This document shows positions 6,581 to 59,108 of a DNA stretch of 64,000 bases, one piece after another. A program made the translations under genes and the position numbers. Each line of letters begins with the position of its first letter. Position 1 is the stretch's first letter. The notes beneath the pieces are model-generated. The model ran no database searches and had not been told where the DNA came from. It saw nothing but the letters and a program-made list of their open reading frames with translations. The stretch comes from Niebla homalea (lineage: Eukaryota > Ascomycota > Lecanoromycetes > Lecanorales > Ramalinaceae): NCBI GenBank assembly GCA_019925105.1, contig JAHGAU010000035.1:1-64000 (forward strand), given 5' to 3'.

Positions 6581-6727
6581 AAAATCTTAATCCTTTTATT
6601 TCTCAATAACCACCCTATAAAATTTTATCAACAGAGGCTTGTTTAAATACGCTTACTTCACTCTATAACTCTTATATATAAAGTTAATGGATTAAGTAAA
6701 TAACTTTAAAGATATATTAAGATAAAG

Positions 6728-10921: not shown

Positions 10922-10924
10922 TCA

Positions 10925-12628: not shown

Positions 12629-15600
12629 TGTAGTTTAGCTACTAGCTAATTTGCCGGACATGCGGAATAGCCACTTATCGGCTAAGCGGCTCTTTAGGGG
12701 CCGTGCGGGGGAGCTTAAAGATTTATATAAGCCAGCTTATTTAAATCTTTAAGTTCTTTATTTTATTCTTAAGGATTTATTTAAATAATGGCTTTTATTA
12801 AAATTACTTTATATATATCTTTTCTATTAAAAACTTATTATTTTTTTATTAACTTTATATTTAATAAACTATTTAAAATATTTATTATTATATTTACCCA
12901 CTTTAACCTTATTATTACCGTTTATTTTACCCGATTAACCTTGCATAATAAAGCCGTCCCGGGGCTTTTATTATTAAAAAGATTAATTAAAACGTTTTCC
13001 GCGGTTAAAAAAATAATAAATTATATTTTATATAATTAAGTTAAAAAGCTTATTAATTATAAATTTATATCTGGGTTTACGTTATAATCTCGTTTTTATT
13101 ATATTTATATTATAAGTTTATAATTATTAATTAAATTTATTATTTTTAATTTTAATAATAATAATAATATTAACGTATAAAAGATTAAGGTCTATTATAT
13201 ATAAGGGTTTTTTACTTAATAATTTAATTAACTTAAAGTCCTATTTTTATAAGTTTTATAAACGGAAAAATAATTATATATATTAACCGGATATATTTTA
13301 TTTATTTATATATTCTATTAATAATCTTAACCGTTTTTCCCTTAATATAAATAACCTTAAATTAAAATATAAGGTATAACGTCGGAATTAAAGGCTTTAT
13401 AAAATTTATACCGTAATAAATATAAAATATCCTTTAAAAGTATTTTATTAAGTACGTTTCTTTATAAATATTATAATATTTATATTAAATTTCTTTTAAT
13501 TAAAAAATCTTAATTTATTATTATATAAAAAGGGGATTTAAACTATTTAACCTTTAAAAAGATTATAATAGAATATTACTTTTTCAGAATTAAGCCTTAA
13601 GGTAAAAAAAAACGTATTTAAAAAAAAAAAAAATATTAATTATTATTTACCGGTATTAAAATTTACTTTATAATTCTTTATTACTTTATCCCGGAGAAAC
13701 GGCTTAAAATATATAAAACCTTTATAACGTATTAAACCTATTTCTTTAAGTTATTAATCTTATATACTTTTAATTCCGTAATTTAATATTATTATATTTT
13801 TATTAATTATATAATAACTTATAATTAAAATAAACCGGAAAACTAAACGGTTTATAATATAAATAAAACTTATAGCGTCTTAAAACCTTATTTTAATATG
13901 TTAGTTTTTTTAACTTTACGGCTGGCCGTTATAATAACGTTAAAATATAAAGATAAAAAAGATTAAGTTTATTATAATTAAAATAAAAATAAATATATAA
14001 CGTCCGATTTTAAATATCGATATAATTATATATATTATAATTATAAAGGCTTTTATAAAGCTTAAAATTATATTTAATAAAATAATTTTAATATATTATT
14101 ATTTAAATAGCCTTATAATAAATAATTAATTAATTCCGTAATTATCCTTTTATCCTTAATAAGTATTAATAAAGGTTTATTTTATTATATAATAAATATA
14201 AATAATAATTAAAGATATAAAGAAGTTTTATTTAAAACTAAAAAATAAGATTTTTAATTATATTATTATCCGGATTACGATTATTACTTATTAATAGGGT
14301 AATTAAGCCGTTTTAAAGTAAAATTAAATTATTACGGCCTTAATAAGTCCGTAATTTATTTACTTTATCCGTTAATTATAAAGGATTTTACTATATTAAG
14401 TAACGATATTTATAAATAATTAATTAAGAACTATCTTATTACTTATACGTACGTCTTTAATAAACTATATATATATTTTTTATTAATTTTAACTCTTAAG
14501 TATAATAATAGATAATATTATATTTATAATTTTTTATATTTTTATAAAGAATCTATTAATAACGGAATCGACGTCCTTTATAAGGCCTTTAAATATATAT
14601 TTATTAATAAAGCGATTAACGTAATAATTATATAAAGCTTAAGCTTTATATTTATTAAAAAAGATTTATTTAATATTTTTCGTTATATCTTAATAATTAT
14701 AAATAATTAATAATTATTTAAGTTTATATAAAATAATATTTATTATATTAAATATTTCTTTCTTTTTAAATTAAGAACTATACCGTTCTTATTTAATTTT
14801 ATGGTAAAAAACTTATATTAAATATTTATTATTAAGCTTAATTTTAATATCGTATTTTATTATTTAAATAATTTCTTTAATATATTTTTATTAAAAACCG
14901 ATTTTAAGGTTTTTAATTAAGCTTTTAACTGCTTAACTAATAAACTTAAGTTACTTATAAACCTTAAGAAAAACCTCGTAAATATTATATTTAATTTCTT
15001 AAATATTAAGATAAATATTATAGTAATAAAGGTACGTTTACCGTAAAATAAATTATAATAAATAATTTAAGGTTTTAAAGATATTTTTAAGAGTTACTTA
15101 ATTAAATATATTATATTTAAATTTTTAATAAGTTTATTAAGCTTTATAATTAAAATAATATTATTAAAACGGCCTTTCCTTTATAAACTATATAATAAGT
15201 TTATAAAAACCAATTATTAATAGATTTATATAAATAACGAGATCCATAAGGATTTCTTTTAATAATAAAGGTTATTAAGTAATTATAATAATTTATACTT
15301 AAGACGGCTTTTAATAACTTAATTATGGTATTACCTTTATATTAACGCGTTATCTATTTACGGTATAAATGGCTATTTACTTAAAGATATTGAGGATATA
15401 TTTACCCCGGAATTCACCTTTATTTATAGGTTACCTTTTTAACTGAAAAAAGCTTATATAAATATCTTTAAAATAACGGCCGTATTTAAGGCTTTATAGT
15501 AATAATATACCATATTAATAAGGGATTCGGTAATAATTTACTTAAATAATATAAAGGTTATTTACGGTATTAAGAACTTAACCATATAAGGTTAAATTAT

Positions 15601-17015
15601 AAATATTATTCATTAATTAATTTTTATTTTATTCTTAAATAATATTAAGTATATTATAAAATAAATCTTTATTAAGGATAATTAAATAATTAATTAAATT
15701 TTAAAATTTAAGTAAAAGAAAATTATTAATAATTTATTTTAACTTATATATTTACGTATATTATAATTATATCGGATTATAAATATATTAAAAACGGATA
15801 AAATATAAGTTAAATTAATTTATAAACGGTATAATATTTACGTTTTAACTTTATATTAAATATAAGGTCGTTATATAATATAGAAAGTAATTCTTACTTT
15901 AAATAATATATTATATATAAGGTTTATCCGATTATTTTTACTTTATTTTTTATATTTATTAAATAATATATATACTTTATTAATATTAAAAAGCTACTTT
16001 ATAAGATTATTAAAAATTATTTTATTACCGTTAAATCGGTATATATTAATTAAAGCGTCGGAAATCTTAAAGTTTTTTAATACCTGGTACTTTAACGTTT
16101 TATATACGATATAAAGAAACTATAAGATAAATATATATAAAAAGAATGGCTTCTTATTATTAATAATATCCTTATTAAATTTATATATAGTTTTAATATT
16201 ATTATTAAATTTAACTTTATTATATAAGCCGTTTTTTATTTTATTTATACGGGCTTTTTATAAATAAAAAAGTTTATTTATAATAAAACCGACCTTAAAC
16301 CGGACTTTAAGAAATATTATATAACTTAATTATATATAAAGTTTAAGGATAATTATATAAAGCTTTATATTTTAACGTTAAAAACGGATATTTTCCGGGA
16401 AAAAGTTATTTTTAAAATTATAATAACCTTTAATAAAACTTATTTTATATAATTTTTAAAGGATTTATACTTTTAAATAATAACTTTATTATAAGTCCCG
16501 TTTTTCTTTTTTATTTTAAAATTATTTATATAAAACCTTATTATTAATATATTATATAAATAATTTATATAATATAATATCCGTAATAATTATTTTAATT
16601 ACTTTTTCCGTTAAAATATAATTACGGATATATAAAAAGCTGGATTAAATATTAAATTTATTAAAAAAATTTAATAAATAAAAATTAAATATATATTAAC
16701 TTTATATTAATTTAATTAATAATATTATCTTTACGGTATTATAATATTATTAACTTATTTAAGGTTAAATAAGTTAATTAATATTTATTTAAATTATTTC
16801 TTTAAAACTTATATTTTAACTTTAAAAATTTTTAATTTTAATTTTACCTTATAGTCGGGTTATAATAAAAAGTATTTTAATAATAAAGTACCTTAAGATC
16901 TTAACGGTAAAGTTTTTATAGCTTAAGTTTTAAGATAAGTTAATTAAAATACTATAAATATTAAAAATATTATATATTTATATATATACGTAATAAAAAT
17001 TAAGTAAATTAAAAA
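12629..17015 (+). mobile_element. RIP-degraded transposon-like element, copy 1 (about 4.4 kb)
   Basis: The first ~190 bp (from tgtagtttagct) match the start of copy 2 at 17,016, and the segment at about 16,830-16,975 matches the end of copy 2 at about 17,250-17,390. The left ~90 bp are unmutated, while the interior is mutated to extreme AT content. Aligned copies differ almost only by C/T and G/A transitions, the mark of RIP. The inside carries a few short open frames but no recognisable transposase or reverse transcriptase. An LTR element was considered, but the end segment is not found near 12,850-13,050, so copy 2 is better read as a separate deleted copy. Confidence 0.7.
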
Positions 17016-22113: not shown

Positions 22114-24158
22114 ATGGCTGTCCTCACGACGAGTGAGTTTCTAGCGCTTGGCTTTGGCCTTGCTTGCCTCTACACAGCCAGCCTCATTGTCTATCGCTTG
22201 TATCTGAGCCCATTGGCTAAATTCCCGGGCCCCAAGTTGGCTGCTGCGACGCTTTGGTACGAGTACTATTACGACGTGATCAAGCGGGGCAGGTATAGCT
22301 GGAAGATTGCTGAGCTTCACGCACAATATGGTACGCCGGTCCATCAGATGTAATCATTGAGTTCACCTCGCTGATTATCACCTAGGCCCAATCGTACGAA
22401 TCAGTCCTTTTGAGCTGCACATCGATGATCCTGAGTTGGTATTGGCCATGGATAACGCGGACACAATACTGACCAGCTCAGCTATTATGACGAGCTCTAC
22501 GTCGGACCTTCCACACGAAGGACGCTGAAATACGGATGGTCATTGAGAGGATTCGGACCCCTGAACTTCACTTTCTCCACGGTCGGGCATGAGCACCATC
22601 GGATCCGACGAGGCGCGCTGGCTCCATTCTTCTCAAAGACACTCGTACAGCAGCTCGAGCCAGCCGTTCAAGTCATGATCGACAAGCTGACGACGCGTCT
22701 GGAAGGATTCAAGGGCACTGGTGCCGTCATTAACATGATCAACATGTATCCAAGTCTCACCACAGACATCATGTGCCAGTATGCGTTCGGTGCTCCTTAC
22801 GGCTATCTGGACATGCCGCAATTTGCCCCTTTGTGGCATAAAGCCGTGATGGAAGCCTCTGAAGCCTCGCACTTTTTCAAACAATTCCCTTGGATCGAGT
22901 CTGCAATGCGGCAGATGCCGCAGTCGCTTGTTAGGAAGATGGCACCAAAGCTGGCGTCACTCTTCCTGCTCGTCGATGTGCGTCATCAATCGTTCGCGTG
23001 ATTGTTGCGTGTGCTGATACGACGGAGCAGATGGTGCACGAGAAAGTGTCGGAGGTGCAGGCGGATCTCAACGAGGGCGTCAAGATAAAAGGGCAGAGGA
23101 CCATTTTCCACGAATTGTTGTCCAACAACCAGCTACCGCCCGAAGAAAAGACGACCGAGCGCCTGGAAGCTGAGGGAGTGGGATTGGTGGCTGCAGGGTA
23201 TGGTTTTGCTGCCAGCGTCAAGGCCAGATTGACTTGGGAATGATGGCTGACGTTCTGTACCATTCAAGCTCTATGACCGTTGCCCATACCTTGTCGGTCA
23301 TCTCATACAACGTTGTCGCGAACCCGGTGATACTAGCAAAGCTGCAAGCTGAATTGGTGGAGTTCCAGTACAACAGCACATCTCGCCTCAAGTGGACTCA
23401 ATTAGAGCGACTTCCCTACCTCGTAAGTAGATGCGCGTGTCTTTTAAGCCCAAGATAGTCTTGGGTCCTTGCTCATAATATTCAGAGTGCGATCATCCAA
23501 GAAGGCTTTAGGTCAGTATTATTGAAACAGCCATATCAACTTGTTCCTCGGCAGACAAGGCCTAATCACCCATGCTTCCTAGATGGGGACATGGCGTATC
23601 CCACAGGCTTCAACGCATATCACCGGACATTGATCTTCAATACGGAAAGTGGTCGATTCCACGAGGTGTAAGTGCAGTCTTGAGCTGATCTCCATACAGG
23701 CAGCAGGGAGCTCTTTCCGCCTTCTTACATGACTGATTGTATGCACAGACGCCGGTAGGCATGACTTCAATCATGATGCACAACAACTCGGAACATTTCC
23801 CCAATGGTCAGAGCTTCGACCCCGAGCGCTGGCTACATCCAAATGCATCGTACTTGCGCAAGTATCTCGTACCGTTCAGTAAAGGCTCGAGGCAATGTCT
23901 GGGCATGAAGTGAGTCGACTTGATCAGTTCCATGACCAATCCTGACATCCACGGTGGATCCGCAAGCTGATGAGAATCTTGTTTTCCCCTAGCCTCGCCT
24001 ATTGTGAGCTCTACCTCACGCTTGCTGCTGTCTTCGCACCTGGTCGCTTCAAGTTTGAGCTGTTCGACACCAACGCTAGTGACGCGGAGGTAGCACATGA
24101 TTTTTTCAATGCGTGTCAGAGGATGGATTCCAAGGGCATTCGGGTCAAGATTACGTGA
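22114..24158 (+). CDS. Cytochrome P450 monooxygenase
   Basis: Nine exons were assembled: 22,114-22,330; 22,386-22,438; 22,477-22,977; 23,031-23,197; 23,269-23,422; 23,486-23,511; 23,583-23,667; 23,749-23,909; 23,993-24,158. All junctions keep phase and give 509 residues. An N-terminal membrane anchor is followed by [13 protein letters not shown], the [11 protein letters not shown] region, and the ExxR-type helix as IQEGFR. The heme-binding loop is [14 protein letters not shown], with the Cys ligand. It resembles fungal P450s labelled trichodiene-oxygenase-like. Intron 2 is only 38 bp and could be misplaced. The substrate is unknown. It could serve the peptide cluster 6-16 kb downstream, but that is only inference. 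Confidence 0.9.
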
Positions 24159-30489: not shown

Positions 30490-32041
30490 TCACAGAAATT
30501 CCTTTGTGAAAACGCCAGTGGGATCGTATACATGCTTGATCCTCTGCAATTTGGTAATTCTGTCGTCCCCTCGGTACCTGCGCTCAATTGGGCCATCACG
30601 CGTGCAATTCGGATAGTCGATATAATTGGTCGGTTGTTGGCCCCTCCGCATGATGTTGATTACATGCCGTTCGAGCTCAAATAGCTTGACGCAGCTCCTG
30701 GGATCTTTGGCCCACGAGAGGCAATTGCTGGAAAGCGAATCAGCTTGAATCATCCGTTCATATATGGGTGGTCGTCACCTACCCCCATAAGTGTACGTCA
30801 TGGTGGCTCCATGCAGAGTCCAACGCTGGCTTGGGGATATTCGAGGCCCTCGAATGCCACTCGACGATGTAAACTGAGGCTTTTGCATCTGGACAAGATT
30901 GCAGCAGGCCCTTGAAAGCCTCAATCACCTCGAGGAAATTCTCTGTGCGAAATTCTTCCAGGCCTGCAAGGTTGAAGCCTTTAAAATCTCCTTTTTCGCA
31001 TGGTTTATCCAGATGGTCGCTAAGGTTCGGGACTAACGGTGTCTTCTCGCTAAACATGACTGGACCAAGACTTTGAAGTGGTTGAAATGCTTGAGGCGCC
31101 TCCGCGATGTCTCCGAAATAGTGAGGTGCAACCATTATCATGGGTTGAAATGCTGGAGGAGGAGCCATGACCATCAGATGTCCTGCAGTGAGGTTCTTGG
31201 TATCCGACATGAGTCCCTCCATCACTTTGCAAACCTCCTCTGCTTTCTCGAGAGGAAAAATGAAGTTGCCAATCCAATGTCGCCCGTCTGGACTCCCGTA
31301 GACCAAGAGCGGGTAGGTTTTGAGTGTAATTTCGAGAACCAAACAAAGATGCTGTCCTGCGCCTTTCAAACCCCAGAAGAGGTCAGGATGTGAACTTATA
31401 TCAGTGTGTACCACTTGCCCATCCGCTAAAATGACCCTCGCGCTTTGGATATTGTCACAACCAAAGCCCATCAAACCAGTCGCAACGCTGATGCCTCCCC
31501 CAAGGCAGTACGGGATGACGCCTACAGGATTCCCGTTCCCCAGAGCTTTGGCGAATTAACAAGGTACACAGTCAGCTAGCAGCGAATAAGTACCTGTGCA
31601 ACGTCCCGCGGCTGCTAGTGCCGTTGAAAGCTCTTTCATCAACACTCCTCCAACAACTCTCACGTCATTGGTCTTGTCATCGATCTCGATGCATTTGAGG
31701 GTGGAAAAATCGAGAACAAATCCATCGTCACCAATGTTTGACCAAGGGCTGTGCCCACCGCAAACGGGGACAAAGGGCGTATGAGTCTTATGAGCAGCGT
31801 TGACCTATGTTAAAGTCACGTTATTAACACAATGAATCCCATTTGGTGGGTGTTCCTTGCTCACGGCTGTGACTGCATCATCTTCGACTGCGACCTGTAC
31901 GATAGCTCCAGGCGTTTGAACTCCAATTTCAGACCATCTTTGATTGGCCTCTTGAAATTCTTGGTCTGATGAGTTTGTATAGAGAGAGGCTGAAGGAGAT
32001 AGCTTTCCAGAGACTTCTTTGAGGAATGCACTAATGGTCAT
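30490..32041 (-). CDS. Berberine-bridge-type FAD-linked oxidoreductase (no signal peptide)
   Basis: Four exons (32,041-31,865; 31,804-31,594; 31,545-30,783; 30,727-30,490) remain in phase and give 462 residues. The FAD-binding PCMH domain shows CGGHSPW with the His used for covalent flavin attachment in this family, the strand-loop VIPYCLGGGIS, and DLFWGLKGAG. The end matches the BBE domain (YDYPNCTR-like NYIDYPNCTR, then RIKHVYDPTGVF). No signal peptide is visible, so it is probably intracellular. It is separated from the SAT4-type gene by a 1.28-kb divergent promoter region. In fungal clusters such enzymes oxidise or cyclise pathway intermediates. A role in the adjacent peptide pathway is inferred from position only. 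Confidence 0.9.
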
Positions 32042-33320
32042 GCTTGCTGGACGAGCCTGCGTACGAGACGCAAAGTGGGACCGGAAAATAACTACTGCTA
32101 GCGGATGGGAATGATCCACACAATCGCATTGCAGGCAGTCGTGAAACACACGACAGAATTGACAGACTCGATACAACTTTACAAGATCTCCAAGAAGTGT
32201 GACAGGTAATACGATACGTCGTAAAATTACCGTACGAGATTGTCGAGCAAAAGATCCCGGGTTATCCAATCTGAGACTGGAGGTCAACACCATGCCTGAT
32301 GGAGCAAGTGTGTTGGCCTGAGCGGCAATCGACCAACTCGCATGCATTAGCTCCGTTGCTATCATGCTACACATCCTATAATGCCAACAAACCTCACAAG
32401 TGCTTATGCGCACGAGTAAGTCTTCCCGACCAAAATAAGCAACAAGCCGTGTGTCACTGTCGGGATAGAAAATTAGGGATGCCGACTTTACACAATGACT
32501 GCAGATCAGAGTAATTATTCGCGGCATCGAAATTGGATTGGCTGGCAACCGGAAGAGCGTTGACTTTCGTTCTGCCGTCTTTGCGCCAACACCGGGGATC
32601 CTGCGGAGAGTTCTCGATGCAGTCAAACACTCAGACATAAGCGGGGAAGGTCGAGACATGGGTTCAAGCTTGCTAGGAGAGACCTACCGGGCCGCCGTGC
32701 GGCGCGATCCTCTTCTCATTGGCTTCGTTGTCACCAGATGTAAAGCAAACGTCATACGTCCAATTATAAAGCGCCAATAATGTTGCTCCCGAACCACCAC
32801 GTGTAGCTTAGCAGACGTTTCCCAATTCTTATTGAGTACGTTTCCTCCCCCCAATTCGAATTTCCGGAATGCCGTCTGTCTTCGGTATCTGTGTAAAGGA
32901 GCTTGTAGCGGAAGCAAGTTATGATATTAAGCGTCCCAGGCATTTCTCGAATAGGGTCCACGCATACATGATAGAATTCGCTTCGAGGAAGACTATCAAG
33001 CTATTTTCCGACGACAAAGCTTAATTACTGAAAGGGAAAATTGGAGTACAACTACGAATGTGCTTACAACAGTGATATCGTGCATGAGTCGCGGCGTTTC
33101 AGGGTTGCAGTAGCCTTTTGTTCAAAATTTGGTCTAAGCGATAACAGCAGCACCCACACCAACTCTCTTCCGTCAGTATGCAGGCTCCCATGCCCACGAT
33201 TTCTCCGCCCGAGCTCTCGGTCAGCCTGCAGAAGGACTTCGCATCTGCGACTGAAATGCTTCACGGCCCACGCTCCCATATTGGATTGTCTCTCGAGGAC
33301 CATCATACAGGCCTCTCACT
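32042..33320. promoter_or_regulatory. Divergent promoter region, FAD oxidase / SAT4-type gene
   Basis: About 1.3 kb between two outward-facing genes. No gene is supported inside. Individual binding sites cannot be called with confidence. Confidence 0.4.
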
Positions 33321-34702
33321 ATGGGCTCCGAGGAATCGAAAGGCGAAGTTATAGCACTGGGTAGTGTGTTTGCAGCTGCTCCAATCATTGCTATTGCACT
33401 GCGATTCTACGCACGCCGCATAGTCCGCACAGCCTATGGACCTGATGACTATCTCATCATACCTGCAGCTGTGAGCTTGTCGCCACCTAGGATGGGACCC
33501 TGGCTGAATGTGCTAGCTTTTTGCAATAGCCACCGCCGTCACGCTCATCATTGGTAATACTTCGCCTCACGCTGCCATCATGCAACTCGCTGATTAGCTC
33601 AGGTGCCTGTGTCGGAGAGCTTGGGCAGCACCAGAGACAGGTGCATAATGCTCAGGGGCAGCTCATCCACGACAAGGGACTGGTACATTACGAGAAGGTG
33701 GACATCTCTATTTCACACCGACTCTGACACATTGATAACGACAGTAGGTCAAATTGGCTACCCAAGCTTTGTCCATTGTTTCCATCGGGTGTGCAAAGCT
33801 CTCGCTCGTTTTCTTCTACCGAAGGATCTTCTCTACGAAGACCTATCGCAGGATCGCAGACTGCTACCTGATATTCATCACATGCTGGACAATCGCCTTC
33901 GTACTTGCGACAATCTTCCAGTGCATCCCAGTCTCAACAGTCTGGACGGAATTTGAATACCTCTATGGGTCAAAGTGCTTCAAGGTGTTACCGTTCTACT
34001 ACACCTTCCAAGTCACGGACGCAGTCTCAGATTTGGCTGTCCTCATTTTACCGCTCCCAATGCTATGGCGATTGCAGATGCCCACGAGACAGAAAGCCGC
34101 TGTTGGGCTTATGTTGCTGATGGGCGCTCTGTAAGCGACTCCGCCCGCTGTGCACAGTGGCTGAATGCTGATAATCCTGGCAGAATCATTGCTATCTCCT
34201 GGACCAGACTTGGCATCTACGTGACGGTTGGAAAGCAGCTTATGGAGCACTTCCACGACGTCGTCTGTGCGTTGAAATTGCTTGCGCCAGATCTCCAAAT
34301 ACTGATGAAGTACCAGACTACACAACATCGACACTCTATTGGAGTAGTATTGAAAGCTCGCTCTCCGTTCTTTGCGCTTGCCTCCCCACGATGCGGCCCC
34401 TATTCTCTTCTAAGATCAGACATTCAAAGAACAGGTCATACTCATCAAACCCTTCGAAGAGTTCTTATATCCCCGGCTGGAAGTTAAAAGCAAGGAGGTT
34501 GGAAGAGGGAGAGTTGGAGTCGCTGCATTCGGTGACGCGGCTGAGAAGAGAGAATGTACTCCCGACAAATGTCGGTGTGAATACGCATGTGACTGCGGTT
34601 CCATTGGAGCTTCTCCCACAGCCTGAAGCTGCGCATCGAGGCATTTGGGTGCAGAAAGAGCTTTCGAGGACAGGATCGAGGCAGATGCACAGTGGCTATT
34701 AG
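33321..34702 (+). CDS. SAT4-type (fungal rhodopsin-domain) integral membrane protein
   Basis: Six exons (33,321-33,470; 33,517-33,553; 33,603-33,697; 33,748-34,130; 34,184-34,266; 34,317-34,702) stay in phase and give 377 residues. Typical family features are: an opening helix with ALRFYARR and YGPDDYLII, KLATQALSIVSIGCAKLSLVFFYRR-type helix 3 (in two parts), the CxxVS-type loop CIPVSTVW, the VTDAVSDLAVLILPLPMLW region, and WSSIESS...CLPTMRPLF closing the seven-helix core. A hydrophilic Ser/Lys/Arg tail of about 110 residues follows. Members are plasma-membrane proteins of unsettled function, and genes of this family are often found inside secondary-metabolite clusters. The last intron (34,267-34,316) was chosen because it restores the family reading frame and has a CTGAT branch-like site. 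Confidence 0.85.
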
Positions 34703-35215
34703 TGGTGAGCTATTTTGAGCGCCGTTCGAGGCATTTCCAGAATACCTCTAGGGGCATCATTTACGATCTGCTCACATTACGTTAATATTACCTGTTAATT
34801 CACATGTCAATTAGGTAAAGCTGATGGTTGTTCCACACTGTGAATCGCACGTGACGTTCTACTAACTTTTCTTGAGAGGTCCGGTCGTGCCATTTGTTGC
34901 GCATATAACAAGCATGCATTGTCCTGTAGGCGCATGATTAGACTCAGCAATGTGACGACAGTGTGCATAAATCGGCAAAATGATGCAGCCGGCCAGCGTG
35001 CGGGGCACTTCCCAGGTCTACAGGAAACACGGGTTCAAAGGGTTGGGGAGAAGAGTCTGGGCCATGAGTCAGAGGTAATGGTGCTGCTTTTGCGCATCGC
35101 GCCGATTGCAAGATGAGGGGATGAGTGCTTACTAGATGACGATCAACAGGCTCAATGAAGTCTGTATTCCTTCAACGATCATGTGATTGCGAGTGGATTC
35201 ATACATCATTCTTCA
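34703..35215. promoter_or_regulatory. Upstream region of the first UstYa-type gene
   Basis: About 0.5 kb without a gene between two plus-strand genes. Presumed terminator of one and promoter of the next. Confidence 0.4.
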
Positions 35216-36274
35216 ATGGATAACGAGAAATTCCAGCCTTTGCTTGACGACCGTCTTGATTTCGAGGACGAGACCGGCTACAGTAAAGGGAGCGTGTGGC
35301 GGAAAGATGGCAATGCGACGAGAGGGAATTCTCGCGGACTCAAAATCATCACTGTTGCGCTCAGCGTAGCTTACATCCCCCTTGTTGTCCTCTACATTGT
35401 ACTGTTCACACGATTCCAATATCCTCCATTACTTGATAACGTGCGCCCATTTGATCTCTTTCCTTGTAAGTCGTGCTCGGCATTGACGCCATTGCTTCGC
35501 CATTTGTGATTTCTCCATGCGCGCAATCACTGACCCAATTCCTGGGATTCAGCTCTGGCTTCCAGCAATGCCATCAACTACGAACAGCGACGTTTCCAGG
35601 TAAAACTGCATAACAATTCATTCTCCGGCCCACCCAGGCCAGAGTTGGATGCAGCATGGCATGAGCTGTTTGAAAGTAAGGATGGATCCCCAATCTATGC
35701 TGGAAATGTCAGGCGCAAAAGCTGATCTCACACTGTCAACGACAGATATACGAATCAACGTGACGCAGCAGGACCTGGACTACTACAATCTTACGTCAAT
35801 ACCGTTGGCTGGTGGCCAAGGATATGCGGCGGAGTTGGGGGTGCATCATGAATTGCATTGTTTGGTGAGCCGTACGTGCCGACAAGGGTAATAGATGGTG
35901 CTAACAAGGCTTCGTGCAGAAGAAGATCAGACATTGGATTCACAGGGATTACTATCTAATGAATGAGACGGATGATGAACTGATGGAGTGGGAAGCGCAC
36001 ATTGGTAAGCGGAAGCCCTGTTTGAGAAGCAAAGCTGTACGCTGACTGAAGACCTCCAGATCATTGCGTAGAGATGATGAGAGAATCGATCATGTGCAGG
36101 GGCGACCCTTCACTGACGACGTTCAAATGGGTGCCCAACGATCCACCGCAATTGACCGCAGTCGCACTGGGTCATCATCAATGTGTCAATTGGGATAGCA
36201 TGATGAGCTGGGTCCGGGATCGTGCTGTACCGATTTTTGAACCTGCTGTTTTGCAATCACCAGATGAGATGTAA
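35216..36274 (+). CDS. UstYa-family (DUF3328) oxidase, first copy
   Basis: Five exons (35,216-35,465; 35,553-35,675; 35,746-35,864; 35,920-36,004; 36,060-36,274) keep phase and give 263 residues. One membrane segment lies at about residues 42-65, after a hydrophilic cytoplasmic N-terminus. Both family HxxHC motifs are present: HELHC at residues 159-163 and HIDHC at 191-195, the second assembled across intron 4. A DAAWHELF block precedes them. In dikaritin RiPP pathways UstYa-type proteins catalyse oxidative cyclisation of the precursor core, probably as metal- or copper-dependent enzymes in the secretory path. It is convergent with the second copy; only 76 bp separate the two stop codons. The spliced motif strongly supports the model. 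Confidence 0.92.
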
Positions 36275-36350
36275 TGTATGGTTTATATAGAACTCATCCG
36301 TTAGCAATAGTCGCAATATTGTATGACCCGCGGAACGGACTGCTGAACGT

Positions 36351-37187
36351 TCACCGCTTGCTTGGTTGCTCAATGGCTGGATCCCAACTGTGCCATTTCT
36401 CCGCCCAATTCTTCACCTTGTCAAAATTGCGACACGATCGCTCAAACGTCCAGCCCGTCACACCTCCAAGTTCAAAATCCACAGGCTCAAGATTAGTGTC
36501 TGCATTACAAATGAGCGACTGACGCAGGTAGTCGAAGCAGTGGCGTAAGTGATGCGGATCAGGTCTTTTATTGTGATCGTGTATATGCTGCATGTCTGCA
36601 ATGTTGCCGTTGAGCGCGGCGTAGTACCCTACTCGAAGCATATTGACGCAGTGCAATTCGTGGAATACGGCAATTCCTGAGAGCTTTGGGGAGATCTCAG
36701 GGTGCTTGACGAAGCCGACACCGGCTTGAGACCTTCAGTGAAAGTATGCGAAAGGATGGACCTCAAGTGACTCACTGGGAAACATCCCGTCCCATGCAGC
36801 GTTGGTCTCATCTGTTGGCTCCTTCGTATAGGTCAAGTTGTACACCATGGGATATCTGACGTTGCCGGGCGGATTCATGAAGTCTACAGGCGTCAATTCG
36901 GGACCGAGAGGAGAGAGGTGCGATGACACACCATGATCCGATATTACTGAACATGTTTCTGACTGCGAATGGAGATTGTACCCAATGATTCCGGAAGCCA
37001 GTGCTACCACGGATAGTGTGACACTGATGTACAGGATGCTCAACACATTCCATCTGTTCAAAGCCCTTTCTGGCTCTTCGTATTGGCTCTTGTTCTCTGT
37101 TTCCGCATCTCCCAGTCGCACGTAATGGATGTCTTCTTTCATCGAAGACAGCGGCTTGGTCATCAAGAATGACCAGATAGGACTCAT
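36351..37187 (-). CDS. UstYa-family (DUF3328) oxidase, second copy
   Basis: Two exons (37,187-36,776; 36,724-36,351) give 261 residues. In-frame ATGs at 37,163 and 37,142 are possible alternative starts. A single membrane segment lies at about residues 47-70. The family motifs are HELHC at about 159-163 and HLRHC at about 196-200, followed by LRQSLICNADTNLEP, which is very typical of the family, and a Trp-rich tail. The intron count differs from the first copy, so these are old paralogues and not a recent duplication. It is transcribed away from the precursor gene, with 464 bp between the start codons, which suggests shared control. Having two different UstYa-type enzymes is usual in ustiloxin-type clusters. 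Confidence 0.92.
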
Positions 37188-37651
37188 TATTCAGGTTTAC
37201 GATGTCTTTATTTGTGCTTTCAACAACATCCAATTCTGACGGATACCACTTTCAATTCTGATTTCTCAGAAGGAGCTAGGCAAACGTATCGGCCATGTGG
37301 AATTGCTAAAGCGGCAATAGTAAGACCGTTGGGAGCGAGACCGTGCGTCCAAGGCTTACCGATCACTATTAGTAGAGCCAATGAGCGCTTCTTCGTGACG
37401 AAATCGTACCTCCTTCTCGCTCTCTTTCCTTCCCTTCATATGTACAAGTCCTGGCTTGCAAGGCGCCATTGCTTCATGCACTTTGGAGCGCATGTAGAAG
37501 ATTAGGCTTACGATTGTCATCATTCTCGAAGCTGTAGAATTTGAGCAATTGATTATATATACATACAGTGGTGGACGCAGAAGCCATCAGGGTCTCAGTC
37601 GAGGATTCAAATACTGGGATCGACCTTTTGGGCCATCAGACGATAGCAGCC
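37188..37651. promoter_or_regulatory. Bidirectional promoter, UstYa-type gene / peptide precursor
   Basis: This 464-bp region separates the divergent start codons of the second UstYa-type gene and the precursor gene. A TATA-like box, tatatata, lies at 37,554-37,561, about 90 bp before the precursor ATG, which suits a strongly expressed small gene. No transcription-factor motif could be assigned. Confidence 0.6.
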
Positions 37652-38052
37652 ATGAGGCCGTTCAGTTACCTCTTGTTCCTAAGCAGCTGCATACAGGCAT
37701 ATCCAACGGGAAGAGATGATTGTGGGTTCCTCAACAAAGATTGATGGATATGATTATGCTGACCGATGAAGCTTTGACAGCAAGGTCTGAGAGTGCAGAT
37801 GGTGACGATCGAGTCGTATATTCGTGGTCGCTCCCGGAAGAGAGGATGACGCCCAATGATGGCAACTACAAACGTTCAGAGACAGCCGACGGAGATGACC
37901 AAGTGGTGTACTCGTGGTCACTGCCAGAGGAGAAGGCTCAGCCTGACGACGGAAATTACAAGCGCTCAGAGACCGCCGATGGAGACGATCAAGTCGTCTA
38001 CTCATGGTCACTGCCAGAGGACAGAGCTACACCAGAGGAAGACAATCCTTGA
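37652..38052 (+). CDS. Repeat precursor of a dikaritin-type RiPP (Kex2-processed)
   Basis: Two exons (37,652-37,721 and 37,772-38,052) give 116 residues. The 50-bp intron has GT, a branch-like CTGAC and AG, and restores frame exactly. Exon 1 encodes a signal peptide (MRPFSYLLFLSSCIQA). Exon 2 encodes three tandem units with a strict 90-bp, 30-residue period (residues 29-58, 59-88, 89-116). Units 1 and 2 end in Lys-Arg, the Kex2 cleavage site; unit 1 is preceded by Ala-Arg and the last unit lacks the KR. Each unit holds an invariant VVYSWSLPE in an acidic Asp/Glu-rich setting, so the core is probably within this Tyr/Trp/Leu/Pro segment. Many differences between units are synonymous, which points to selection on the peptide. 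Flanking UstYa-type genes complete the assignment. The product is not recognised and its bioactivity is unknown. Confidence 0.88.
37786..38052 (+). repeat. 90-bp in-frame tandem repeat in the precursor gene
   Basis: Units at 37,786-37,875, 37,876-37,965 and 37,966-38,052 (the last one slightly short). Protein identity is highest over SETADGDDQVVYSWSLPE, while DNA differs at many third codon positions. Confidence 0.9.
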
Positions 38053-38873
38053 CTGTGGTACTTAAGAAGGACGCGCCAGACTGCTCAAGTTAGTTTTGGA
38101 GACATCTTACTGCGGGATGCCAGGCAGGCTTTGGATGAAACGACTGGGGGAATTGGTAATGACTCGACTGTGTCTTATAACTTGCTCTAGACATTCAGAG
38201 GAGGGGATGCGAAGGGTGCCTGAAATTGTTAGTACAAGCATTCAAATGGATGATGTGATGTCATTGTTGGAGCGCGAGATTTGTAACGTTTGTTTTCAAC
38301 GTAATGGGTAATGAAAGTTTCGTATGATTGGGTCTAGGCCAGAGCCTATCAAAGGCCAAATTACCAAGACCCTTCGTTGTTACTTGTACCTGCCCACTTT
38401 GTGTTGTAGAATATGATCAATCGATTTGGCGAGACCAATCAGCAAGCACAGCGCCATGCTACCTTCCGTTCCGAGGAATATAATCCGGTCTCCACCTCGT
38501 GTGTAGCCCACACCCTTTCCAGATTGCGACGTTGTAATTCCATGACGTGTTGCATTGTCAAACAACGATCCTTCAAAGCCATCGACCAGCAAGAGCGCGT
38601 CTCGAGGCCCTTCTACGCGGTCAGAGACATAGCCTATTAGGATCCTGGGGGAAGTTACTTTCCATAGGACTCGCGAACACGATTAATCGACCTATTGGAA
38701 CGGTGAAATCCCTTTATGCTCATTGAAATTTGTCTTACTCTGTGATGCGGCTTTTGCAACGAAAGTGCCGAGATCCGTTAATTTTAGCGATGAGTCTACT
38801 TCAACACTGACTGAGACGCCTTGAACACCTCAGATTGAGCCCGAACAGCCGTCGCCTCCTGGAAAATCAAAGC
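38053..38873. other. Region between precursor and second FAD oxidase
   Basis: Contains the possible minus-strand coding piece listed next. Otherwise it is presumed terminator of the precursor gene and promoter of the oxidase gene. Confidence 0.4.
38380..38682 (-). other. Possible exon or gene relic, unknown
   Basis: The minus strand is open for 101 codons and reads protein-like (for example LLVDGFEGSLFDNATRHGI and GGDRIIFLGTEGSMALC), but has no ATG in its first part and follows an in-frame TAA. It could be a terminal exon or the remains of a lost cluster gene. No family is recognised. Confidence 0.3.
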
Positions 38874-40461
38874 ATGGCTCGCATTGTGGCCTTTATTGCC
38901 TTGCTGGCCTTGGGTTCATGTACTCCCGACCCTGCTGTAGTCTCATGCGGTCTGGCTTGTAAGATCGATGGAATTCTTGGCCCACAGTTATCCAAATTGT
39001 CCTCCATTGTCCACTCTTCGTCAGCAGCTCCCAGATGGAGTGAGTACGATGCGCCAACGCCGGGGATTGTTGTGAACGCCAGGACGGAGAAAGATGTTCA
39101 GATGACCGTAAGTACATGACCGTTCTCTTGGTTCACCTGTGAGCCAAGCAGACTATAGTATGCTCAGTTCCTTTGTAGGTGCAATATTGCAATGCCTACA
39201 ATATCAGCTTCTTGGCGCAAGGTGGAGGAAACGGATGGAGTGACACGTTCACACTCGGCAATCGAGGCGTGCTCATCAACCTTCGAGGAATGCGAGACAT
39301 CGATTTCAACGCCGACAAGACCGTTGCGAGGGTTCAGGGAGGAACCATCATCAGGGAACTTATCGCCGCTGCTTATGGGAACTCCACCCAAGTCTCCACG
39401 GGCAATTGCAACTGCATCGGCGTCCTTGGCTCTACTCTTGGAGGTGGATATGGGCGCTTGATGGGCTTATACGGCATGAGCGTTGACAATCTTCTCTCAA
39501 TGAATGTCGTGACTGCGCGTGGCGACGCCATCACTGTAACCCCGCGGGATCATGACCTCTGGTGGGCTCTCAGAGGTGCAGGTGCCAACTTTGGGATCGT
39601 CACCTCTGCCACCATGAGAGCTTATCCAGTGCCGCAAGCCCAGAATGGTGCCTGGCTGGGCCCGCTTATCTTCACTCCTGACAAGATTCCTGAGCTCGTC
39701 ACGGCCATCAACGGCCTTACTTTGACTGGTCGGATGTCGATATTCATGTATTTCACCACGGCGGGGCCTCCAAACTACATGCCTACAGTGATCGCCATCC
39801 CGTTCTATCTTGGCCCTGCAAGTGAGGGTGAAGCAGCTTTTGCCTCTATCTTCGCCGTCGGACCCATCTCCAACATGACAGCCTTCACAGCCTACAACCA
39901 GGTCAACGAAGGAAGTGAGTCCTTCTGCGTTCCAGGTGGTCGCAAACCCTCCTATGCCGCTGGAGTAACGAAGCTCGACCCTCGGACCTGGGTCACCATC
40001 TTCAATAAATACGTCGACTTCTTGAAAACGCCTGGTGTGCAGAACACTACTGTGCTGATGGAGTACTACCCATCAGCAAAGGCAGACTCTTTTGGCGTAG
40101 CATCTTCGTCATACGCATTTCGTTCCTCTATCAGAATGAATGCGGTCGTGAACACGGCATACGTCGACCGCAGTCTGGATCCTGTAGCAGAGTCGTTCGG
40201 CTCATCCGTACGAGATCTATGGCGGTCATCGGGAGGCCTGAGTCAGAATGATACGTAAGTACCGTACTTGCTGCAACATCACCAGCAAGAAGCACAAGGC
40301 ATTCTCAGGTCAACGCTGACATCAGTCTCAGGTACATCAATTACGCGAACGGTGATGAGCCATTGATATCGATCTACGGTGACAATGTGCCCAGATTGCA
40401 GCAGCTCAAGCAGCAATATGACCCCTCAAACCGGTTCAATCAATGGTTTCCTCTGTATTAG
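38874..40461 (+). CDS. Secreted berberine-bridge-type FAD-linked oxidase
   Basis: Three exons (38,874-39,107; 39,179-40,254; 40,332-40,461) stay in phase and give 479 residues. A signal peptide precedes a PCMH-type FAD domain: NISFLAQGGGNGWSD, then TGNCNCIGVLGSTLGGGYG with the Cys that may bind the flavin (about residue 155), and DLWWALRGAGANFGIVTSAT. The BBE end is PRLQQLKQQYDPSNRFNQW. The usual flavin-linking His is replaced by Asn (about residue 96), so attachment would be single or absent. It lies on the same strand as the precursor, about 0.8 kb downstream. A secreted FAD oxidase next to a secreted precursor suggests a role in oxidising or cross-linking the peptide. That is inference. 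Confidence 0.9.
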
Positions 40462-50588: not shown

Positions 50589-50640
50589 CACGTTTGAAGG
50601 ACACGTTTGAAGGACACGTTTGAAGGACACGTTTGAAGGA
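50589..50640 (+). repeat. 13-bp tandem repeat, four perfect copies
   Basis: cacgtttgaagga is repeated four times without error at 50,589-50,601, 50,602-50,614, 50,615-50,627 and 50,628-50,640. No function is apparent. Confidence 0.95.
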
Positions 50641-51628
50641 CGAGCGCAGGCAGGGAATGGGTGGGAGAGCGCAGGTCGCGGTGATGGAATGGGACATCAG
50701 GGACAAGATCCATCTCGAGGGGGGTGTAGGTCCTCCATCGATCCTCGCAGGCCTAAGACAGGCCTTGTAGTGGATGTGTGACTTATGGGAGTGAGTCGCT
50801 TATGTCGCTTCGTGGTCATGGAAGGGCCTGATCCGGTCAGGACAGATATTATGAGCGCGACGTTATCTTCAGTGGTTACCGCAAGTGCCATTATTCGCAG
50901 GATAGCAAATACAAGTCCAATAGCCAGCTGCTTGTAGAGTTGTATCAACATGGTAATAATGCGGACGATCGACGAGAATGAATCTCGAACCACTAGTGTT
51001 ACCTACAGCTTATTAGCAATATCAACCGCCAGCTTCTACACTCTCAGTGTTCAGGCCTTATGGTCGAAGGTTAGCATGCTTCAAGAAGTATGGTGGACAG
51101 ATTCCGGTCATAGTTGGTAAGAAAATCCCCTGGGACCGTAGTTGGTTCATCAATAAGGGATGACTGCAATTCCCGCAGAGCACACCATCATCGAGGAATC
51201 TTTAGTCACATTCATGTAGCATGCAGAAAGACTTGACTCAGGCCTCATTGGATTCGACAGGTCCCTCACAGAGCACACGATGTGTATGGACATTGTTTAT
51301 CCTGTGCACCGGCCTGAGAGCCGTCTCTGGCAAACGCAGAGGTGGTCAATCATCTTTGACGTGGAAGATTCTTTCAAAGATGCGAGGCCAGAGTAGGTGG
51401 AAAGCGCGCGACCCTTCTCTTGGTGTTTGAGACAGTCAGCATGCATTTTTGGCGTTAAGATGAAGCGATTTAGAAAGATGAAGTATGTGTACTCTTCCAC
51501 TGCCCCAAACGCGAACACCTTCTTAATGAACAATTGGAAGATGAAGTCCTCTCAATCAACACCAATGCTACTGACTCTTAGCATGACCAACCTGCTGCCT
51601 TGATTTTGCCAGACTACATCACGGACCT

Positions 51629-54316: not shown

Positions 54317-55846
54317 CTACTGCGATGACCTCCCAGACCACGTAGCGTAATGCTTAAACACATCTATTTTCTTCAACATCTCAAGTTTCTTCCTTTCTAT
54401 CCCTACCATGACCTCCAGCCCCTCCTCCAGCCCCTTCTCGGCAAATAGCATTCCCTTCAGTTCCGGCGCCACGACGATCAAGCCAGGAATCGCAAACTTG
54501 CAAATTCTTACCCTTTCCACCTTGCCCACTTTGCTGCCGAAATCACATTCATAAAAGCCTTGCTTCGCCCAAGAAGTAACGGTAAGAGACTCCCCATCAG
54601 GTGCGCGGGTGACATAGGTCACTTTGCTGATGTCAGGGACCGTGTTGGTATCGGTAAGGAGGGCAACCAAGCCTTTCACACGGGAGACATCGAATTTATT
54701 AATGGAGCGGCGGAGACTGTGGGCACATGATGCTATTGAGGCTGGTATTGCGCTGGGGGTGGCACTGCTTGACCCGAATCGTCGCCTGGACGGGGATATG
54801 GTGAGGCGTAAGATGTGTATGGCATTTCCGATGTAGTCGGGCGAGATGGGCGGGTCGTAGTGGCGCCGGAAGTTGATGGCTATGCCGATGTTGAGTGGAG
54901 CTGGGTCATCTGAGCTTAGGTTAGCACCTGTAGAGGTGGAATGCATACAGAGGGCGAGGAGGGAGCAGAGCGCGTCATTGGTACTGATCCAGGGTAGGGT
55001 TTCGTCGTGACAGGCAGAGGGTGCAGGAGTAGCTAGATTTTTCAGCTCTATGAGCTTTGCATTGGAAAAGAAGAATGTTTCGTTGTCAATAATCTCATTG
55101 TTGGGCATGGTAGCGCCCTTCTCGCTGTACACATTCGGCTTTGTATTATCGTTTGGTTTAATAGCAGCTGCTGTGTTTGCTTCCATCCTTTGGGCGGCAG
55201 CAGGCGAGAAACTCAGCTCAGGGTAGTCTCCAAGATTCGCCGTTCGAACATCAATATCACTCTGCATCAACGGCCCTCGATCCATCACGTTTTTGGTCAA
55301 ATGTCGTGATCCATCATCGCCTTTGCAGTACGCCGCCCACACCTTCGCTACTGTAGCTGCACCATTTCCATCGGTGAAGCTGTGATTCGTGCCTATCCCC
55401 ACGATGAACCCCCCTGTGATGACATTGATTTGAACAAAGAAGACTGGATCCGTCGACGTATCCGCCATGGTTGGTGCAGGGATCAAAGTGGCAGCAGGCA
55501 ATTTCGCCACTGGGAAATTCTCTCCTTGGAGGGTGGAGTAATCGAATTTGGCATCGTTGCTTAGATCCTGAACTCTGAAAATTTCTGATATGGTTCGCCA
55601 TGGTTTCGAGATGCAGAGTCTGCCCTGCTGCTCGTCCGCTGAGTTTGTAGAGATGACTTGGGTGGTGCCGGCAATGAGGGGTAAAGCCTGAATGGTTTTC
55701 TCGAGACCCTCTCTGAGAGTAGCAACAGTGTCGGCGGCTGGAACTGATGGAATGAAGGGGAAGAAGAGCAGCTCCAAGACTGGCCGGCGTGGGAGGACAT
55801 TGTCTATCGGTGTCAGGATGAATGGTTCAACTGGTGTCGAAGGCAT
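54317..55846 (-). CDS. BAHD-type acyltransferase (trichothecene 3-O-acetyltransferase-like)
   Basis: Intronless 509-codon frame from a clear ATG. The catalytic motif HxxxD is present as NHSFTDGNGA near residue 175, and the C-terminal structural motif is seen in variant form as YECDFGSKVGKVERVRI. Length fits the PF02458 transferase family, which moves acyl groups from acyl-CoA to hydroxyl or amino groups, in the cytosol. Such enzymes decorate secondary metabolites. It lies 14 kb from the peptide cluster, with pseudogenes and other genes between, so a joint role is uncertain. The variant DFG motif (no Trp-Gly after it) is tolerated in fungal members. Confidence 0.88.
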   Translation of the reverse strand: MPSTPVEPFILTPIDNVLPRRPVLELLFFPFIPSVPAADTVATLREGLEKTIQALPLIAGTTQVISTNSADEQQGRLCISKPWRTISEIFRVQDLSNDAKFDYSTLQGENFPVAKLPAATLIPAPTMADTSTDPVFFVQINVITGGFIVGIGTNHSFTDGNGAATVAKVWAAYCKGDDGSRHLTKNVMDRGPLMQSDIDVRTANLGDYPELSFSPAAAQRMEANTAAAIKPNDNTKPNVYSEKGATMPNNEIIDNETFFFSNAKLIELKNLATPAPSACHDETLPWISTNDALCSLLALCMHSTSTGANLSSDDPAPLNIGIAINFRRHYDPPISPDYIGNAIHILRLTISPSRRRFGSSSATPSAIPASIASCAHSLRRSINKFDVSRVKGLVALLTDTNTVPDISKVTYVTRAPDGESLTVTSWAKQGFYECDFGSKVGKVERVRICKFAIPGLIVVAPELKGMLFAEKGLEEGLEVMVGIERKKLEMLKKIDVFKHYATWSGRSSQ

Positions 55847-56405
55847 GCTTGCAGCTGAGTGGCCCAGCGAAATAGACTACACCGGGTGCTTGACCTCTAA
55901 CGTTTCCAAGTCTGGGATGTATTTCCAGAGGGAGGCTTTTGCTATAGCGACAATATAGTCTGAGAGAGTCTCTTTCTGCCTATTCAATCTCGTCTCAGCG
56001 CGCTGTAAGATGCGGACATCACCTAGGCTCGAAGTTTCGGGGAAGACTACTAGATAATGTACGGAAGTATGTTATATCTCAGGACCAGGTATCCTGATCT
56101 CTTGGATACGGTGAGATGCTCGCTGACGTCGCCTAAGCACTATAAAGTATTTGTTGTGCTCCTCCCTTGGAGGCTGTGACGTCATTGGAGACCCTGCCAT
56201 AGAAAAGGGGCTCACTTGTGATAACAGACGTTCTTGTTCTTGTCCATGTTCTTAGTAAAGGGACTGAAGATAAATGGTACATTGCTGTCTATTATGGATC
56301 TCATATAACCAAGAGGCTGAAGGGAATCATGGCTTCTATTGCCTGCAGTAGAGATGAAGCATCGAGGTATTTCCCCAACCAGCACCAAGCTCAAATCACA
56401 TCATA
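55847..56405. other. Intergenic region, nothing recognised
   Basis: Short gap containing the presumed acyltransferase promoter. No gene is supported. Confidence 0.45.
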
Positions 56406-59108
56406 CTATGTCAAGATAATAGTCTCAGCAGTGAACTGACTATTCCTCCATACAAGCTCCGACACTCGCCCCAAGCCTAATCGCGATGCGATTAGCTTCC
56501 TCACGGTCCATTCGATCAACATGACATTGTACCACGGGTAATCTGCGTCTTTGTTGTCGTACCGTCGCAGTTTCTCCTCGCTATAGCCGAAATATTCAGC
56601 TTCCGAAAGCACCACCAGAGCGTTCTTGCCTTCAACTAGCTCCGGATGTTATCCTGCTTCCAAAATGGAAGCTGGAGGAGCAAGAAGACTTGAATATCAA
56701 TTCTCGGCTGTTGAGAAGCCGCACCATGTCATTCGAGAGATCGAGATCCTTTAGAGACTCCCGTGACTCAAAGCCTGCGGGCTTTTGATCCCACTCGACA
56801 GGAAGAGGATCGTCCAGTCCGATAGGCAGCGGAATGCCAAGCCCATTGCCATTGATCGGTTGCAGATATCGCCATCAAGCGAATACCACTGAAGAAGGCA
56901 TCGGGTCCGCTCCTGGCCGAATTGTTTAGGAATTGGCTTGATGATCTCTTTCTCACCTTCGTCGTCTTCGAAGGTCTCATCGTAGCCAACGCGGCCGACC
57001 CAGCCTGCCCAGCTCCAGCTGGGGATGTTGATATCCTTCAGCCGCCGCCGCCGTAACCTTTCCTGTGGCCGCCAGAGGATGGCCACGTCGAACAATTTGT
57101 GAGGAAGGCCGTAATTCGTCCGGCAATGAAAGCACTGCTCCAAGATACCAAGTATGCCTGCAAGGGCCTTCAAAATGTCCCTTGAATATGTGATTTGCCG
57201 GTGAGTGTAGTGCTCGACGATTTTCACATACTCCGTGAATGCCCCCGAGCGCACGAGGACCGTCCTCCCGTCTGGTAACATGGAGATGCTACCATCCACG
57301 TATCCTCTCCTGGCATTGCGTCCGACGTACTGAGGCTTGATGGACAGCCAATCGAATCGCTCTATCTCTCCGAGTTTGTCAGTGCCTACTACATCTTCAA
57401 AGTGGACGGCCTGCCGGCAACGCCACATCATCTGTCCGCCAATGAAGATCAGGAGGCGCCGCGAGAGTAGCCTCTCCTGTAGGGTCCATGCTCTTGAATT
57501 CCATACCGACTCTTCGAGGCCGAGCGGTATGGGCAGGTGCCCAATGAGTCGTTGATCCTATTCTAGATGCCCAACCTGCTGCTCAACGTTGCGAGTGTCT
57601 TTCTGCACTCCTGAAAACCCTTTATACGCATCAGCAGCGTCTGCCGCAATGATAGTCACTCGAGCATTGCCGAACATGCGATCCATGGCAGCCATGTGCG
57701 CATTCCTCTCGTGTTCGTCATCTTGCTGAATGCACAAGGAATCAATCCAGAGATATCGCAAGCCCAGACTGCAAGTCGCTGTCATTGCATCCTTGAGCGT
57801 CTTAGGGATGTCATGTTTGAGGAATGGCTCCAGCCCGGACTTTTGTAACAATTCCTTCAAACGTTCTTTCTTCAGTCGAAAATCGTTCTTCGGTCCGCAG
57901 ACATAGCTCAGAGCGACATACTCTACGTCAACGGTCGAAGGTCCACTAAACTCCACCAGGCAGTGGTCCTCGACATCGATTAAGCGGATGAAGTCTGGCG
58001 GTCGGAGCACGAATTGCCAGCCTTGCTCGGAGCACTGATTCCCATGATGGCGGCGACAGTGGTCAAGCCACATCTTACTCGTCTCCAGGGCGATCTGCCC
58101 CTTGTCGGGCGCCTTCTGATAGCGGAGATGACTTCTCGGCGACCCACCAGCATTGGCCCTGGGTCGTCCTTCAGTGCTTAAGCGGAAGTGGCTAATGATG
58201 GAGTTTTCTGCTTTGTGGCCTCGTCCGTAACCCCGGAGCTTGATGTCGAGAAGACCTTTGGGATCTATGTCCACGATGATCTGACATGGAAGCCGCTTCG
58301 GGATTGATTTAGCCGCAGCGATGGCTCCAGGGCCAAGCAGGCCTAATTCAATCACATTCCGACTGTACCGACCGGGTGCGCGAGTGACACCATCGAAAGA
58401 CCCGTGGATGTCCTGTCTTGTGGTGGCGCCATACCCGAATGGCCATCCATTCAGACGGAAGGATTTCTTGGACCAGACATCGAGCCATGTCTGGAAGTCT
58501 CTCTCGCCAATTGCGGGCCATTTGCGTCTGTTATCGGTGAAGTCCTTCTGCCGCTCGCCTAGATGGTCTCTGATCTGTGGGTGTTTGAAGGGATCATTGT
58601 GAGGCTGGCAAAGAGTTTCCAACAGCAAGGTACAGAGTCGACACTGGTGTCGGTATAGGATGACTCGCTTGAGTGTGGTGTGCCATGCGCAATCAGCGGT
58701 CGCATTCGAGGCCGGTGGTTTCAATTTCAAGGCGAGTTCCTGACATTTGCTGCAAAGATAGTCTGTGTTGGAGAAATAGTGGTTTGAAATGTCGGTAGCA
58801 TCGTTGGCGATTGGCGTAAATGATCGTCCAAAGGATTGTCCCCAGGATTGCTGTAATGTCAGAGGGCGAGATGGAGGTTGCTTCTCGGCGACAGTAGCCT
58901 CTAGGTCTTTCGGATTTGGCAACGATTTGGCTGTACTGAGACCTTGCTCAGGAGCTTCTTCTCCCTCCTCGTCCGCAGGTAGTGGCGAATGAGCTAGCGG
59001 TCGGAGCTCATCTAGCTGACTCTAGACATCCAAAGAGCTGTCCTCAGAGTCTGAGCAAGTCGCGTTGGGGGAATCCCATCCCGCATGAGGTGTAATCATC
59101 GAAGACAT
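56406..59108 (-). pseudogene. HET-domain (heterokaryon incompatibility) pseudogene
   Basis: From an ATG at 59,108 one frame runs almost to 56,751. It has the HET core: VEYVALSYVCGP, IPKTLKDAM, LGLRYLWIDSLCIQQDD, MDRMFGNARVTIIAADA, SGV, then SVWNSRAWTLQERLLSRR. It is interrupted by TAG at 59,022-59,024 (codon 29) and at 57,558-57,560; both would be Gln (CAG) with one C-to-T change. Near 56,810 the protein-like reading moves to another frame (LPVEWDQKPAGFESRE), and the tail at 56,406-56,615 lies in yet another. So there are two nonsense changes and at least one frameshift. HET proteins trigger cell death after fusion of unlike strains, and decay of alleles is common. Confidence 0.85.

Follow-up and report, generated by a model that had tools for sequence, protein, structure and literature searches.

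The window analyzed here is the first 64 kb (64,000 nucleotides) of contig JAHGAU010000035.1 (C35) of Niebla homalea, of which the genome comprises 50.6 Mb in 52 contigs. Within positions 30490-40461, we found six genes in the order of a flavin adenine dinucleotide (FAD) oxidase gene BBE1 (minus strand), a SAT4-type gene (plus), UstYa-A (plus), UstYa-B (minus), a repeat precursor gene (plus), and a second FAD oxidase gene BBE2 (plus). All six had been claimed in the first-pass annotation of this stretch, and each was located there by the gene models. For these, GT-AG introns were combined with open frames, two joints being placed by hand, and the results were checked against Pfam.

30490-32041, minus strand: BBE1, a FAD_binding_4 oxidase of 462 amino acids (aa); exons 31865-32041, 31594-31804, 30783-31545, and 30490-30727
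33321-34702, plus strand: gene of a SAT4-type (Fung_rhodopsin) membrane protein; the 3' half of the model is uncertain
35216-36274, plus strand: UstYa-A, 263 aa, Pfam-checked; exons 35216-35465, 35553-35675, 35746-35864, 35920-36004, and 36060-36274, with the first intron revised by hand
36351-37187, minus strand: UstYa-B, 261 aa; exons 36776-37187 and 36351-36724, with the stop of exon 2 set by hand
37188-37651, no strand: stretch of 464 bases between UstYa-B and the precursor gene, which run from it in opposite directions, from the gene-model positions
37652-38052, plus strand: repeat precursor gene, 113 aa; exons 37652-37721 and 37781-38052
37786-37875, 37876-37965, and 37966-38049, plus strand: three repeat units, from sequence and codon comparison
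38874-40461, plus strand: BBE2, 479 aa, with FAD_binding_4 and BBE domains and a signal-like N-terminus; exons 38874-39107, 39179-40254, and 40332-40461

UstYa-A and UstYa-B matched PF11807 at 6.9e-44 and 2.7e-28, respectively. Both possess two HxxHC motifs, the hallmark of the UstYa family (HELHC and HIDHC in UstYa-A; HELHC and HLRHC in UstYa-B), and all six His and Cys positions of these motifs were invariant in the family alignment of 28 UstYa-B relatives. The main open frame of the SAT4-type gene matched PF20684 at 2.1e-32. BBE2 matched both FAD_binding_4 (8.2e-26) and BBE (2e-9), while BBE1 matched FAD_binding_4 (1e-21) with no BBE match at E<=0.01 in the Pfam search. Thus, the initial description of "two BBE-type FAD oxidases" is exact for BBE2 and approximate for BBE1.

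The precursor had been read in a single frame. Its repeats with KR stood, but the reading was replaced by a better model of two exons, in which a signal-like exon starting with the ATG at 37652 is linked to the repeats by a 59-base GT-AG intron (37722-37780). The three units are 30, 30, and 28 residues long, and each consists of a conserved block of 19 residues and a variable spacer, with KR ending units 1 and 2. The block reads SE-x-ADGDD-[QR]-VVYSWSLP-[ED] in all three units. The repeat is beyond chance, as the precursor scored 37 against a maximum of 7 among the shuffles (one residue shuffle for each of 631 stop-free peptides bearing at least two dibasic sites, taken from 20 fetched loci and positions 18001-60000 of the window). 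In the first 19 codons, the unit pairs 1-2, 1-3, and 2-3 gave synonymous differences (pS) of 1.04, 0.85, and 0.54 and nonsynonymous differences (pN) of 0.057, 0.068, and 0.023; between the spacers, pN was 0.29, 0.39, and 0.40. Such values from three units are descriptive numbers, albeit all three pairs agree. As the changes in the block are mostly silent and those in the spacer are not, the block is, on this codon comparison, under purifying selection, i.e., it represents a conserved peptide.

The selection on the block also bears on whether the locus is decaying or silent, being near an AT-rich contig end that resembles the product of repeat-induced point mutation (RIP). Positions 1-16000 show RIP-like dinucleotide ratios (TA/AT 1.22-1.34; (CA+TG)/(AC+GT) 0.18-0.72), and the model of the SAT4-type gene is awkward in its 3' half. 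Nevertheless, the ratios are normal from approximately 20 kb on, and five of the six genes retain intact frames with ordinary introns (two joints being hand-set). We therefore regard decay or silencing as improbable.

At E<=10, only two proteins in the database, P0001 (64% identity) and P0002 (57%), matched the precursor. ADGDD-[QR]-VVYSWSLP was kept in all six units of the two relatives, and, by eye, the N-termini of the Niebla precursor and P0002 look hydrophobic. No second copy of the precursor was found in the genome searched, and the core string YSWSLP was present in no paper covered by our literature text search.

To assess linkage in other species, we compared contig sizes; the protein search reports the size of the longest contig for each match, and matches are clustered at 90% identity, so that the own contig of a member may be hidden. 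P0001 and P0150, the latter found with exon 1 of UstYa-B (53% identity across 51%), were both assigned to contigs of 45473 bases from the same sources. Thus, the precursor is not missing from all of the relatives that keep UstYa, an absence that the first-pass annotation had named as evidence against a peptide cluster. Likewise, matches of UstYa-B and BBE2 were found on equal-sized contigs in three cases (46265, 21466, and 23885 bases), against a mean of 0.015 expected when the sizes were moved up or down by 1-200 bases; the comparison covered 119 of the 120 listed BBE2 matches and all 32 UstYa-B matches. The pair of 46265 bases belongs to Lecanoromycetidae sp. Uapishka_2 and bears the consecutive locus tags P7C71_g2573 and g2574. 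The top match of UstYa-B was of Ramalina farinacea (92%, covering 67% of the query), and the named matches, which make a lichen-forming host likely, were mostly of Lecanoromycetes and other ascomycetes; those of BBE2 included Lecanoromycetidae sp. Uapishka_2, Icmadophila, and Circinaria, as well as Lachnellula, Hypoxylon, and Aspergillus. Given the equal contig sizes, the precursor and UstYa-B, as well as UstYa-B and BBE2, look like conserved neighbors, and the three genes together look like a conserved module. Of the six-gene cluster proposed initially, the inclusion of BBE2 is therefore backed by linkage in other species, whereas the membership of BBE1 and the SAT4-type gene is unproven.

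The gene content, the repeat, the selection on its block, and the conservation of UstYa-B with both the precursor and BBE2 are observed. We consider it probable that the locus makes a ribosomal, oxidatively modified, secreted peptide through the precursor, the two UstYa proteins, and BBE2. By analogy with the known family, of which the members are described, in the available parts of PMC10880069 and PMC12048977, as catalyzing oxidative cyclization, desaturation, hydroxylation, and chlorination of peptides (and one of which is copper-dependent according to a title cited in PMC12186524), the precursor would enter the secretory pathway, where membrane-anchored UstYa-A and UstYa-B may oxidize side chains in VVYSWSLP, most likely those of Tyr and/or Trp, leading to cross-linking. 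This hydrophobic stretch sits between acidic flanks. A Kex2-like protease would cleave after KR, and perhaps after other xR sites, between the units, and the remaining trimming would be left to peptidases encoded elsewhere. The linkage and signal-like N-terminus of BBE2 suggest that this enzyme may encounter the peptide during secretion and may add further oxidation.

Several points weigh against this interpretation. The signal peptides were assessed by eye, and the sharing of contigs was deduced from equal sizes; moreover, the UstYa match of the 23885-base pair is just 32% identical, and no equal-sized contigs were found between precursor and BBE2 matches among those compared. Over the nine units, the Arg in front of SE follows S, A, K, E, or Q, so that strict dibasic sites are non-uniform, and some of the corresponding sites in P0001 and P0002 are ER or QR. 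No trimming peptidase was seen at the locus. Finally, the pairing of UstYa with FAD_binding_4/BBE (FAD4) genes in the Niebla homalea genome is confined to the present locus.

The last point emerged from the genome-wide survey, which identified 23 UstYa, 30 FAD4, and 120 SAT4-type loci. At one of the 23 UstYa loci, the present one, two FAD4 genes are located at most 5 kb from UstYa, whereas uniform placement predicts approximately 0.0006 such loci, a null model that takes no account of how secondary-metabolism genes cluster; we count this pairing in favor of the probable peptide pathway. The remaining 22 UstYa loci have no FAD4 gene at this distance, as might be anticipated if the peptide derived from the precursor and the two UstYa genes, with BBE1, BBE2, and the SAT4-type gene being neighbors from other secondary metabolism. 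Such an arrangement would also agree with the asperipin-2a pathway, which, in the accessible portion of PMC6514808, requires no FAD oxidase, and with the occurrence of SAT4-type genes within 5 kb not just at 9 of 23 UstYa loci but also at 16 of 89 cytochrome P450 (P450) and 8 of 30 FAD4 loci. However, the recurrence of UstYa-B and BBE2 relatives on equal-sized contigs, once with consecutive locus tags, is at odds with the neighbor explanation, and we hold the latter to be rather unlikely.

By random placement, an average of 0.64 UstYa loci would have a SAT4-type gene within 5 kb, against the 9 observed, and comparison of the adjacency at UstYa loci with that at P450 and FAD4 loci gave Fisher P values of 0.047 and 0.38, respectively. 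As they are also frequent beside P450 and FAD4 genes, SAT4-type genes are best seen as common companions in secondary metabolism. We additionally noticed a Hypoxylon protein (P0088) in which a Fung_rhodopsin domain is fused to a BBE2-like enzyme in a single gene model; this fusion fits frequent adjacency.

Repeat precursors with dibasic sites were also identified at five of 20 other UstYa loci (with the present locus, six of the 21 examined among the 23):

L014:2963-3400, contig C14: repeat precursor
L015:7300-7731, contig C38: repeat precursor
L012:3223-3516, contig C8: repeat precursor
L011:7037-7324, contig C3: repeat precursor
L019:7297-7515, contig C29: repeat precursor

Each of them has its own unit, e.g., IAYPDAYKR, QYKYGKYAEEKR, and ELYPAPDLGRIKVDD. 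On C3, C8, C14, and C38, the repeats are preceded, as on C35, by a signal-like exon lying in a different frame; for the precursor on C29, the weakest of the set, a signal exon was looked for and none was found.

The same survey bears on a signaling pair, in which the SAT4-type seven-helix protein would serve as the receptor of the processed peptide, a ligand of the pheromone type. A distance of 1.4 kb separates the SAT4-type gene from the UstYa pair, genes of this type exceed the random expectation at UstYa loci as noted above, and the processing of dikaritins is compared to that of alpha-factor in the available part of a review (PMC9233826). On the other hand, P450 and FAD4 genes also commonly have SAT4-type neighbors, and only two of the six repeat-precursor loci (those on C8 and C35) have a SAT4-type gene within 5 kb, with a third having one within 10 kb. 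A ligand-receptor pair thus has very little probability in our view.

Returning to the modified secreted peptide, we examined what BBE2 could contribute. The closest solved structure to BBE2 was EncM (2.8e-27), although BBE2 is a distant relative of this and the other BBE-like flavin oxidases with solved structures. EncM acts on a substrate of a different kind. By eye, BBE2 appears to retain the FAD-tethering Cys but to bear Asn at the place of the tethering His, while BBE1 appears to retain the His and to lack the Cys. A rough pattern applied to 120 BBE2 relatives gave H in 42, N in 35, other residues in 19, and no match in 24 at the His site, with the Cys in 103. In contrast to BBE2, no signal-like N-terminus was visible by eye on BBE1. 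In the literature searched, which was limited in scope with many subscription papers outside it, no peptide pathway joining UstYa/DUF3328 and a berberine-type or FAD enzyme was found. The terms UstYa and berberine bridge belong to different clusters in the portion of PMC8982410 at hand, and a term search found neither "RiPP" (ribosomally synthesized and post-translationally modified peptide) nor "ribosomal" in the main text, as available, of a 2024 review on BBE-like oxidases (PMC11375781). We tentatively raise, as a rather unlikely possibility, a flavin-dependent branch of UstYa peptides in Lecanoromycetes and perhaps other ascomycetes, in which a secreted FAD_binding_4/BBE oxidase travelling with UstYa-B would act on the peptide in place of the tyrosinase of other dikaritin pathways, giving a Tyr/Trp-centered cross-link or oxidation distinct from those of ustiloxin, phomopsin, asperipin, and victorin.

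The absence of a tyrosinase and a methyltransferase from the locus, pointed out in the first-pass annotation, held up: neither a tyrosinase nor a small-molecule methyltransferase domain was detected among the 73 window proteins or open segments (7 + 66) scanned, from which short exons were excluded, and PF00264 (tyrosinase) had no match on contig C35. The sole methyltransferase in the scanned segments was GCD14, a subunit of a tRNA methyltransferase, located at 61-63 kb. The accompanying suggestion that the FAD oxidases stand in for the missing enzymes and yield new chemistry was not established. The tyrosinase absence alone predicts no new chemistry, because the asperipin-2a cluster of Aspergillus flavus likewise lacks one as described in PMC6514808, consulted in part. 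This cluster is the nearest in gene content to the Niebla locus, sharing a repeat precursor with a Tyr-bearing core and a UstYa-type oxidase. According to the same partial source, it comprises four genes, encoding a precursor whose core is FYYTGY, a single UstYa protein, an isoflavone-reductase-like enzyme, and a transporter. By comparison, the Niebla locus has two UstYa proteins, FAD oxidases, and a different core, and no transporter was seen there.

In the broad sense, a dikaritin derives from a repeat precursor cyclized by UstYa homologs (PMC10512285, as far as available). The genetic features of this definition are present, as UstYa-B and UstYa-A lie 464 bases and 1.4 kb from the precursor, respectively, and the latter carries three units sharing a 19-residue block, above the minimum of two near-identical repeats of 10 residues or more, with KR after units 1 and 2. 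As regards gene content, the assignment to the dikaritin type therefore stands in the broad sense and not in the strict sense of phomopsin and ustiloxin. These original-sense dikaritins share with the Niebla locus the Kex2-separated repeats, the UstYa-family oxidases, and, going by the signal-like N-terminus of its precursor, probably the signal peptide (PMC6514808 and PMC9233826, both in part), but they use a tyrosinase and a methyltransferase, and their flavoproteins UstF1/F2 are monooxygenases, unlike the FAD_binding_4/BBE oxidases found here. The defining pair of the Niebla locus is the same as in the clusters of a survey that, in the part available, reports, across 1461 strains, 1758 repeat proteins that are processed by Kex2 and have DUF3328 (UstYa) genes alongside (PMC7329392). 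The RiPP clans R1 and R2 of Parmeliaceae share UstYa/DUF3328 with HXXHC motifs in lichen-forming fungi, R1 with a tyrosinase and a methyltransferase and R2 with GNAT acetyltransferases; the portion of this 2025 survey at hand (PMC12048977) reports no conserved repeat precursor for either clan, in contrast to the clear repeat precursor and FAD oxidases of the Niebla locus. As nine clusters of this kind are described in one plant-associated fungus (PMC9632046, in part), finding one is expected.

The surroundings of the locus include P450 fragments (22456-23455), a trichothecene-acetyltransferase-like protein (54320-55876), a HET-domain protein (57561-59021), and another P450 fragment (59829-60602). 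Approximately 47 degenerate copies of the 12-base unit GGGTGCAGGTAA were found at 5996-6564 in the AT-rich stretch, and a 13-base unit, CACGTTTGAAGGA, occurs in four perfect copies at 50589-50641.

Altogether, the locus appears to be of the UstYa/Kex2-repeat kind (dikaritin in the broad sense), of which five products had been reported as of a 2022 review (PMC10512285, in the part available), and, against the literature searched, its peptide and flavin-enzyme partner look new. With its conserved VVYSWSLP block and a flavin oxidase whose linkage to UstYa-B recurs in other species, the locus offers a defined peptide to search for and raises the question of whether BBE-like oxidases tailor ribosomal peptides.

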